Assembly: GCF_005080685.1 (NCBI RefSeq)
Contig: NZ_CP039371.1
Span: 5,828,001-5,892,000, forward strand
Direction: 5' to 3'
Source: Pseudomonas putida
Lineage (GTDB): Bacteria; Pseudomonadota; Gammaproteobacteria; Pseudomonadales; Pseudomonadaceae
DNA: 64,000 bases
Both the position numbers and the translations under genes were made by a program. This document shows positions 43,358 to 46,779 of the stretch, piece by piece. The stretch's first letter is position 1. Each line of letters starts with the position of its first letter. The notes beneath the pieces are model-generated. The model was not told where the DNA came from, searched no databases, and was given only the letters and a program-made list of their open reading frames with translations.

Positions 43358-43873
43358 ATGAGCCACGACATCCGCGACGCCCAGCCCACCGACGTGCCGG
43401 GCATCCTCGACATCTACAACGACGCGGTGCGCAATACCACCGCGATCTGGAACGAAACGCCGGTGGACCTGGCCAACCGCCAGGCGTGGTTCGCCGCCCG
43501 CGCCGAACAGGGCTATCCGATCCTGGTGGCGGTCGATGACAGCGGCGTACTGGGCTATGCCTCGTTCGGCGACTGGCGGCCCTTCGAGGGCTTTCGCCTG
43601 ACCGTGGAGCACTCGGTGTACGTGCGTGACGACCAGCGCGGCAAGGGCCTGGGGCCGCTGTTGATGGCTGCGTTGATCGAGCGGGCGCGGGGCTGCGGCA
43701 AGCATGTGATGGTCGCGGCCATCGAAAGTGGCAATGCGGCGTCGGTGCGCCTGCATGAACGGCTGGGGTTCGTGATCACCGGGCAGATGCCGCAGGTGGG
43801 GGTGAAGTTCGGGCGCTGGCTGGATTTGACGCTCATGCAGTTGGTGTTGAATCCGGGGGCCGAGCCCGCTTGA
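43358..43873 (+). CDS. GNAT N-acetyltransferase of the phosphinothricin/methionine sulfoximine type
   Basis: The product is 171 residues. It begins IRDAQPTDVPGILDIYNDAV and carries the acetyl-CoA loop DDQRGKGLGPLLM and the conserved HERLGF motif. Similar enzymes acetylate phosphinothricin, methionine sulfoximine and methionine sulfone. It lies 31 bp after urtE, possibly in the same transcript, and is the last gene before the repeat array. Confidence 0.88.
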   Translation: MSHDIRDAQPTDVPGILDIYNDAVRNTTAIWNETPVDLANRQAWFAARAEQGYPILVAVDDSGVLGYASFGDWRPFEGFRLTVEHSVYVRDDQRGKGLGPLLMAALIERARGCGKHVMVAAIESGNAASVRLHERLGFVITGQMPQVGVKFGRWLDLTLMQLVLNPGAEPA

Positions 43874-45030
43874 ATGCTGCACTGCCTGCATCGGCCTCTT
43901 CGCGGGACAAGCCCGCTCCCACAAGTACCCCACTGAATCTGAAAATAGTGGGGTACCTGTGGGAGCCCGCTTGAATTCTCACTGCCTGCATCGGCCTCTT
44001 CGCGGGACAAGCCCGCTCCCACAAGTACCCCACTGAATCTGAAAATAGTGGGGTACCTGTGGGAGCCCGCTTGAATTCTCACTGCCTGCATCGGCCTCTT
44101 CGCGGGACAAGCCCGCTCCCACAAGTACCCCTCTGAATCTGAAAATAGTGGGGTACCTGTGGGAGCCCGCTTGAATTCTCACTGCCTGCATCGGCCTCTT
44201 CGCGGGACAAGCCCGCTCCCACAAGTACCCCACTGAATCTGAAAATAGTGGGGTACCTGTGGGAGCCCGCTTGAATTCTCACTGCCTGCATCGGCCTCTT
44301 CGCGGGACAAGCCCGCTCCCACAAGTACCCCACTGAATCTGAAAATAGTGGGGTACCTGTGGGAGCCCGCTTGAATTCTCACTGCCTGCATCGGCCTCTT
44401 CGCGGGACAAGCCCGCTCCCACAAGTACCCCACTGAATCTGAAAATAGTGGGGTACCTGTGGGAGCCCGCTTGAATTCTCACTGCCTGCATCGGCCTCTT
44501 CGCGGGACAAGCCCGCTCCCACAAGTACCCCACTGAATCTGAAAATAGTGGGGTACCTGTGGGAGCCCGCTTGAATTCTCACTGCCTGCACCGGCCTCTT
44601 CGCGGGACAAGCCCGCTCCCACAAGTACCCCACTGAATCTGAAAATAGTGGGGTACCTGTGGGAGCCCGCTTGAATGCTGCACTGCCTGCATCGGCCTCT
44701 TCGCGGGACAAGCCCGCTCCCACAAGTACCCCACTGAATCTGAAAATAGTGGGGTACCTGTGGGAGCCCGCTTGAATGCTGCACTGCCTGCATCGGCCTC
44801 TTCGCGGGACAAGCCCGCTCCCACAAGTACCCCACTGAATCTGAAAATAGTGGGGTACCTGTGGGAGCCCGCTTGAATGCTGCACTGCCTGCATCGGCCT
44901 CTTCGCGGGACAAGCCCGCTCCCACAAGTACCCCACTGAATCTGAAAATAGTGGGGTACCTGTGGGAGCCCGCTTGAATTCTCACTGCCTGCATCGGCCT
45001 CTTCGCGGGACAAGCCCGCTTGTATGGTTA

Positions 45031-45180
45031 GACTTGAAGGGGTGGTGGGACTAAATACCCGATTCTGACTGTTCGCAGCAGTACAGACCGTGGGAGACAT
45101 CGCCCCACCCCTTCCACCAAAGCGCCGATAAAGAATGCATCGTTTGCAAGCGACGATAGAAGCAAGCCAGCGCCTCTGGG
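45031..45180 (+). ncRNA. Candidate bridge RNA of the IS110 element
   Basis: Two successive stem-loops fill the left end. The first has a perfect 10-bp stem (45036-45045 GAAGGGGTGG with 45105-45114 CCACCCCTTC). Its internal loop holds ACCCGAT (45057-45063), similar to the left target GCCCGCT, a small hairpin (about 45065-45085) and GTGGGAG (45090-45096), an exact complement of the right target CTCCCAC. The second has an imperfect stem (45117-45125 with 45170-45179). Its loop holds AAGAAT (45131-45136), like the element's right end ATAGAAT, and ATAGAAG (45156-45162), nearly complementary to the left end CTTGTAT. This is the layout known for IS110 bridge RNAs. RNA ends are not defined. Confidence 0.7.
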
Positions 45181-45224
45181 TGAAACCCCTTCAAGCCGAA
45201 AAACCATAACGTGAGGAGCCGCCC

Positions 45225-46179
45225 ATGGCAATGCAGGTAAGCAAGTTGATCATGGGGGGTGGATGTCGCGAAAGTAGAACTGGTTATCCATCACGATGAT
45301 CGTGATGAGATCATCAGGCTGAAAAATTCCAAACTCGAAATCAAAAGGTGGCTGAAGCAGCAGCCTCTCAATACTGCTATCGCAGTTGAAGCAACCAATG
45401 TCTATCACCTGGACTTGGTCGAGCTGGCCCATCACCTGGGTTTTGAGGTTTATGTCATTGATGGCTTTCAACTCAGCAACTACAGAAAAAGTGTCGGTGG
45501 GCGGGTAAAAACCGATCCGTCTGATGCTCGGTTGCTGTCCCGTTTTCTGAAAAACGAAGGTGAGGACCTCCGCCCTTGGAGCCCGCCTCCTGCTGTCTAC
45601 AGCAAGCTTCAGAGTCTCCTTCGGCGCAGAGCCAGATTGGTGACTGCTCGCACGGCTATGACTCAAAGCTGGGCGAATGAAAGCCTTTTGAAAACCGCCT
45701 TCGAGACCTTCTTAAAGTCGATAGATCGACTGGATCAATTGATCCAAAAGAAGATTAAAGAAGTACTCCGAGAGGCTGGGCTGCACGAGCAAGTCGCTCG
45801 CTGCCAGGCGGTAGAGGGTATTGGTTTTCTCACCGCCACCGCGTTGGTGATGGCTTTTATGAGGGGCGAATTCAAAAGCAGTGACTCGTACATTGCATTC
45901 TTGGGAATGGATCTGCGAGTGAGTGATTCCGGACAAAAGAATGGACGCCGCCGCCTCACCAAGCGAGGTTGTTCAGAAATTCGTCGCTTATTGCATAACG
46001 CTGCGATGGCTGCCAGCAGATCGGCTGCCTGGAGAGGGTTTTACGAACAGCATCGGAGCACAGGTAAAGCCACAACCCAAGCTTTAGTAATCCTGGCAAG
46101 AAAGCTTGCGCGGGTAGCATTCGCCCTGATGAAAAATCAGGACGAATACGTCACAAAAGGCGGGAAATTGGTTTGCTGA
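45225..46179 (+). pseudogene. IS110-family DEDD transposase with a frameshift near its start
   Basis: The main frame codes about 306 residues from GTG 45259, with the DEDD catalytic residues (DVAK, AVEATNVYH, KTDPSDARLL) and the C-terminal serine region (GIGFLTATALVMA, SDSGQKNGRRRLTKRG). The natural start is probably ATG 45225, which has GGAG 9 bp upstream and reads MAMQVSKLIMG. That frame joins the rest only if the six-G run at 45254-45259 were five (MG then VDVAKVEL). As written the ATG frame soon ends, and the GTG has no ribosome site and would place the first catalytic Asp at residue 2. The copy is probably inactive, or the run is mis-called. Confidence 0.85.
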
Positions 46180-46779
46180 AAACCATAGAATCTCCCACAA
46201 GTACCCCTCTGAATCTGAAAATAGTGGGGTACCTGTGGGAGCCCGCTTGAATTCTCACTGCCTGCACCGGCCTCTTCGCGGGACACGCCCGCTCCCACAA
46301 GTACCCCACTGAATCTGAAAATAGTGGGGTACCTGTGGGAGCCCGCTTAAATTCTCACTGCCTGCACCGGCCTCTTCGCGGGACACGCCCGCTCCCACAA
46401 GTACCCCACTGAATCTGAAAATAGTGGGGTACCTGTGGGAGCCCGCTTGAATTCTCACTGCCTGCACCGGCCTCTTCGCGGGACAAGCCCGCTCACAAGT
46501 ACCCCACTGAATCTGAAAATAGTGGGGTACCTGTGGGAGCCCGCTTGAATTCTCACTGCCTGCACCGGCCTCTTCGCGGGACAAGCCCGCTCCCACAAGT
46601 ACCCCTCTGAATCTGAAAATAGTGGGGTACCTGTGGGAGCCCGCTTGAATTCTCACTGCCTGCACCGGCCTCTTCGCGGGACAAGCCCGCTCCCACAAGT
46701 ACCCCACTGAATCTGAAAATAGTGGGGTACCTGTGGGAGCGGGCTTGTCCCGCGAAGAGGCCGGTGCAGGCAAACAAAT

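Follow-up and report, generated by a model that had tools for sequence, protein, structure and literature searches.

A predicted bridge RNA for an IS110-group element in Pseudomonas REPs, with guide letters that change with their targets among relatives

IS110 elements inside the REPs of Pseudomonas have been known since 2006 (PMC1525189), and in 2024 bridge RNAs that covary with their targets (PMC11208160) and an IS1111 element that targets REPs (PMC11187229) were reported. IS621 of E. coli, a member of the IS110 group (PMC11208160, PMC11208158), shares with the element described below a DEDD transposase, detectable by a profile match, an RNA at the left end (predicted in our case) with two guide loops, a CT core, and a REP as the target. 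The description of IS621 also agrees with the donor letters CTTGTAT and with a split guide of the form AU...GCAAG. However, the transposase of our element is only a distant relative, its right target guide has 7 letters rather than the 4 of IS621, and its host REPs and guides are of the Pseudomonas type, known here from sequence. ISPpu9 and ISPpu10 of Pseudomonas putida KT2440 are IS110-family elements located in REPs in 7 of 7 copies each (PMC1525189, PMC8450116), and our element is likewise inserted at one point of a Pseudomonas REP; going by this description rather than by sequence, it may be ISPpu10 or a close relative. The ISPpu9 small RNAs Asr9 and Ssr9 are described as regulators and not as target guides (PMC8450116). 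ISPa11 of the IS1111 group, which uses a seekRNA, resembles our element in being RNA-guided (again a prediction here) and in having the REPs of a Pseudomonas as its target, but the ISPa11 RNA is located on the downstream side of its transposase gene, whereas the predicted RNA of our element lies upstream (PMC11187229). REP-targeting IS110 elements and bridge RNAs are already known, and what is added here is a natural record of guide retuning; among the titles and opening lines of abstracts of the open-licence literature, we found none that examines how guides follow REP types in Pseudomonas.

An IS110-group element at the CT core of a REP

The window, which is the whole 64,000-nucleotide stretch of DNA analysed, carries on its + strand a 1171-bp IS110-group insertion sequence at 45021-46191, delimited by comparing its junctions with those of two sister copies found elsewhere in this genome and with relatives. 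It sits exactly at the CT core of the REP sequence GCCCG-CT-CCCAC, with one CT to its left (45019-45020) and one to its right (46192-46193). The left target half AAGCCCG with the CT core occupies 45012-45020 (+), and the CT core with the right target half CCCAC, the complement of the REP head, occupies 46192-46198 (+). The initial annotation had proposed this same entry point with CT left on each side, and both are seen at the window junctions; its IS110-family element is also real, but the range it gave, 45021-46193, includes the right CT, and the element ends at 46191. The two sister copies are nearly identical to the window copy and lie at different loci with different flanks, in the same REP type and at the same insertion point within it. 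The plasmid and phage collections were searched for the element with no match.

The insertion site is a member of a high-copy palindromic repeat. The sequence GCCCGCTCCCAC occurs 17 times in the window, against 0.02 expected, and 315 times in the genome, against 9 for a reversed control. The head and stem of the target resemble Pseudomonas REPs listed in PMC2817692, where the head end reads GTGGGAG, complementary to CTCCCAC, and GTAGGAG heads occur too. Tandem Repeats Finder delineated a 100-bp tandem REP array at 43862-46747 (no strand assigned), which the element splits into 11.6 units on the left and 5.6 on the right; the units are 97-99% identical, and 15 intact target 12-mers remain on the + strand of the array. 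The 22 Rfam hits were microRNA models falling on REP hairpins and were judged spurious, and the same search gave no match inside the element. The annotation's idea that REPs offer a "safe landing" is plausible as a hypothetical strategy.

The transposase contains PF01548 and PF02371 and scores above the cut-off of NF033542, which identifies it as a member of the IS110 family. A profile comparison also matches it to the IS621 transposase of solved structure (8wt6, E 1.4e-31). Residues D2, E44, D86, D89, and S224, whose catalytic roles were assigned after PMC11208158, are invariant across 15 aligned proteins. The long non-coding left end, with approximately 200 bases before the gene, places the element in the IS110 rather than the IS1111 group; the gene ends 12 bases before the element does. 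Read from the usual start, the frame of the window copy is disrupted, leaving an open part of 306 aa at 45259-46179 (+). The open frame measures 309 aa here versus 322 aa in both sister copies, in which the transposase is intact, whereas the window frame (45225-46179) is broken near its 5' end.

The predicted bridge RNA and its guides

The annotation had read the non-coding left end as two stem-loops, and we find this reading supported by the fold, with a z-score of -2.47 (4 of 200 shuffles fold equally well), and by a conserved and covarying outer stem. The predicted target-binding stem-loop at 45036-45114 (+), assigned from the fold and from compensatory changes, comprises an outer stem (45036-45045 paired with 45105-45114, +) and an inner hairpin (about 45064-45087, +). 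In a set of 41 distinct left ends drawn from 38 genomes, all 10 pairs of the outer stem form in 38 left ends and 9 of the 10 in the remaining 3; a count of 9 is attained by 9.6% of shuffled controls. Positions 7-10 of this stem show double changes that preserve pairing. The inner hairpin is present in 40 of the 41 left ends, with two more pair-preserving double changes. In an alignment of 34 left ends, RNAalifold predicted 26 pairs, 5 of them with double changes. The covariance check proposed in the annotation thus found double changes in loop 1, while the stem of loop 2 is invariant; both stem-loops, with their internal guide loops, are conserved in relatives, and the loss of conservation among homologues that would have counted against them was not seen.

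The right target guide GTGGGAG at 45090-45096 (+) is, as the annotation noted, the exact reverse complement of the right half CTCCCAC at 46192-46198. By simple arithmetic, chance would produce about 0.01 exact 7-letter matches in a stretch of about 170 bases, so that the guide match of a single copy is only suggestive, and the match between guide and target was tested by comparing relatives, not from the window copy by itself. The left target guide is ATACCCG at 45055-45061 (+), assigned because it covaries with the left target half among relatives. The annotation had pointed to ACCCGAT at 45057-45063 as a partial match; the motif is located there, but the match is weak, with 4 of 6 positions (CCCG) agreeing in all three copies of this genome, which puts this guide among the weaker ones. 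When the RNA is folded alone, parts of the two target guides pair with each other or with the stem, and the free RNA may therefore need opening.

The predicted donor-binding stem-loop at 45122-45173 (+) has GCGC ends whose pairs are invariant across the 34 aligned left ends, so the second stem offers no covariation. The candidate left donor guide AAAGAAT (45130-45136, +) shares 6 of 7 letters with the right end of the element, ATAGAAT at 46185-46191, a resemblance in line with one half of what the annotation had said of the second loop. The other half, ATAGAAG as the complement of the left end, fits worse than a candidate right donor guide a few bases downstream (45156-45166, +), composed of AU (45156-45157) followed by GCAAG (45162-45166). 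We prefer the latter because its CAAG is invariant across the 34 left ends and because the right donor guide of IS621 is split and ends in C162-G165 (PMC11208158). Both candidate guides fit the letters of the circle junction, where the element ends hardly vary. In an excised circle, the -10-like TATGGT (45023-45028, +), which is weak in consensus, would be joined to the -35-like TTGCTG (46173-46178) at a spacing of 17 bases. The promoter score averaged 3.3 of 6 letters over 40 junctions, versus 2.47 for shuffled sequences and 1.67 for 116 of the 123 integrated copies (those over 1250 bp excluded), which weakly suggests a predicted promoter at the circle junction.

Guides and targets among relatives

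A protein search of 298 genomes of the same genus gave matches in 140, and 123 of the about 150 copies among the matches listed, from 38 genomes, were examined. CT is present at the left junction in all 123 copies, and the right half is CTCCCAC in 115, CTCCTAC in 7, and CTCTCAC in 1. The guide GTGGGAG faces CTCCCAC in 109 copies and GTAGGAG faces CTCCTAC in 6, all of them in one genome (G094); P. dryadis (L225) provides a second case of a GTAGGAG guide with a CTCCTAC half. Another six copies, all in G080, combine GTGAGAG with CTCCCAC at the cost of one mismatch, and GTGGGAG is found once with CTCCTAC and once with CTCTCAC. The right half is never more than one base from CTCCCAC, and the pattern that the annotation had named as contrary evidence, the same loop at unrelated sites, did not appear.

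Left guide and left target half were compared over six positions, all read in a single register. Six Watson-Crick pairs form in 72 of the 123 copies, and five or six pairs in 111 when G-U is allowed. When the copies are grouped into 16 guide types, agreement with the commonest target reaches 85 of 96 positions, compared with a mean of 61.9 and a maximum of 79 in 100,000 shuffles. Agreement extends to position -6, where the guide and target letters are A-A 60 times, G-G 14 times, G-A 7 times, and A-G twice. The predicted target-binding loop can pair and co-varies with both target halves. The expectation that every insertion lies in a REP with the CT core holds in full for the core, but some sites lack a complete palindrome, and at one locus (L143 in G186) the left flank has no REP arm. 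This locus carries an identical stretch of 18 bases (CTCCCACATTTGGTAGCT) on both sides of the element, which reflects either two neighbouring CT sites or an artefact of the draft assembly.

A second set was drawn from named records not included in the first and comprised 51 loci, of which 45 were scored; L154, L166, L169, L227, L230, and L232 were dropped, with the left end or flank missing or not found. Counting wobble, five or six of six pairs form in 41 of the 45 scored loci. L166, read separately, has the guide CTCG and the target CCCG and represents a wobble case. The low scores of L226 and L229 were traced by eye to an anchor error of the script: AGTCCGCT is found in both the guide and the target of L226, and the same AGTCCGCT guide in L229 has one mismatch. 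The low score of L197 comes from a faulty left flank containing N, while L217 shows a real mismatch between guide and target. At a locus from a MAG (L205), TGAAGCCGCT is common to guide and target.

Choice of REP type and competing explanations

Fifteen genomes contain at least 50 GCCCG and at least 50 GCTCG sites. In these genomes, 47 insertions, all with distinct flanks, were examined; 3 lie at other sequences and 44 were scored. Elements with CCCG guides are found at 13 CCCG sites and 0 CTCG sites, and those with CTCG guides at 28 CTCG sites and 3 CCCG sites; in the 3 exceptions, a guide U lies opposite G, forming a wobble pair. Guide type equals target type in 41 of 44, against 25.5 expected from REP numbers, and none of 1,000,000 simulations reaches this count, although such probabilities are idealised since copies in the same genome share history. 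The candidate guide by which the annotation explained insertion in the REP thus gains support, as the left guide both changes with the target and predicts the REP type within a genome.

Between genomes, some REP types are nearly private to one of the 38 hosts, and the matching guide is present in each: GCCGCCCTCCCAC in G080 (114 copies; at most 4 in other genomes), GTTCGCTCCTAC in G094 (147 copies; at most 15), and ATTCGCTCCCAC in G018 (139 copies; at most 20). With seven REP types counted, 25 of 33 genomes carry a guide of their own commonest type (mean 12.1 and maximum 22 in 100,000 shuffles), a count that is partly circular because the types were picked after the targets were known. With six types the figure was 27 of 33, and adding CCCC gave the 25 used here; the GCCGSCYCCCAC census was left out of the 33-genome count, as were G213, G066, G091, G070, and G022, whose guides are not of a counted type. 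The eight misses are G295, G139, G205, G100, G214, G253, G004, and G009; G139 and G004 have CCCG guides with CCCC as the commonest counted type, and CCCC is the site of 4 of the 5 insertions in these two genomes.

From these comparisons, our main reading is that the element would be led to the REP by the predicted bridge RNA of its own left end, with a probability of about 0.92. The right target guide GTGGGAG would read the REP head that is common across the genus, the left target guide would read the REP stem that varies between hosts, and the second loop would recognise the junction at which the element ends meet in the excised circle, after which the transposase would exchange strands at CT. 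We infer that the RNA is made, bound by the transposase, and paired with DNA, and that the left guide is retuned when the host REP changes, which has probably happened many times with the change of the hosts' repeats.

It is very improbable that the transposase protein alone reads the shape or sequence of the REP hairpin and that the loop matches are incidental. REPs are palindromic, protein recognition of REP targets was put forward in 2006 (PMC1525189), and under strict criteria an exactly complementary stem arm is present within 24 bases in 84 of the 123 left flanks. Yet the hairpins of the two REP types that share a genome are similar, and in 41 of 44 cases the type that was hit is the one predicted by the guide. 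Of the other 39 left flanks, most have an imperfect arm and none is evident by eye in L063, L041, L045, L114, and L143; in the first four of these, the left guide nevertheless matches at five or six of six positions, or nearly so, and a guide match kept at sites where no palindrome is evident favours letters rather than hairpin shape.

Slightly less probable still is an agreement that reflects shared ancestry of related elements in related hosts, with no pairing involved. A 56-row tree of the transposases shows that related elements often have guide and target in common; for 17 named rows of this tree the guides and targets were entered manually, and L166 and L226, whose targets were tied, were each assigned one of the two. 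Copies in the same genome are partly dependent, and an independent-pairs test for CCCG/CTCG on the tree was not significant with its 4 pairs (p 0.25). Ancestry of the host, however, leaves the choice within a genome unexplained, and on the tree the guide 4-mer must have changed at least 17 times and the target 4-mer at least 19 times. The CCAG guide appears in two separate clades, G295/L155 and L215/L219, although L155 is inserted at CCCG; DTU12.3 and HMWF021 have CCAG guides in a clade apart from G295. A different doubt concerns the window copy, which might be a remnant spread or kept by recombination in the REP array without recent guided insertion. The transposase frame broken near its start and the position inside an array of nearly identical units speak for this, but the ends and CT core are normal and near-identical sister copies occupy two loci with other flanks. 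We regard this as improbable, if less so than the other two, and it bears on the present activity of the window copy more than on site choice.

Under guidance by the bridge RNA, it is likely that REP recognition is split between a nearly fixed right guide for the shared head and a fast-changing left guide for the host-specific stem, retuned at each turnover of a REP family. On the same reading, and with comparable likelihood, an RNA-guided parasite would follow REPs and their RAYT transposases by changing a few letters of its guide, and G-U wobble would serve as an intermediate step. Bridge RNAs are under development as programmable DNA insertion tools, and natural relatives reveal which guide letters vary, which stay fixed, and which mismatches get used, including a choice made inside a single genome between two targets that differ by one base. 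If this reading is true, nature has run a bridge-RNA reprogramming experiment many times, and REP evolution is linked with the RNA-guided elements that land in REPs.

Other features were seen in single relatives or at the right ends. At L050 (G066), two copies of the element lie 1352 bp apart, and their left flanks are identical over the 26 bases listed. The element at L140 (G091) is shorter, at 1091 bp, with a left end that lacks the donor-binding loop, and its host has nearly no REPs of the counted types. Many right ends (L054, L063, L075, and others) have a possible hairpin directly before ATAGAAT, for example GTTGAGGG...CCCTCAAC, which might terminate transcription or shape the element end.
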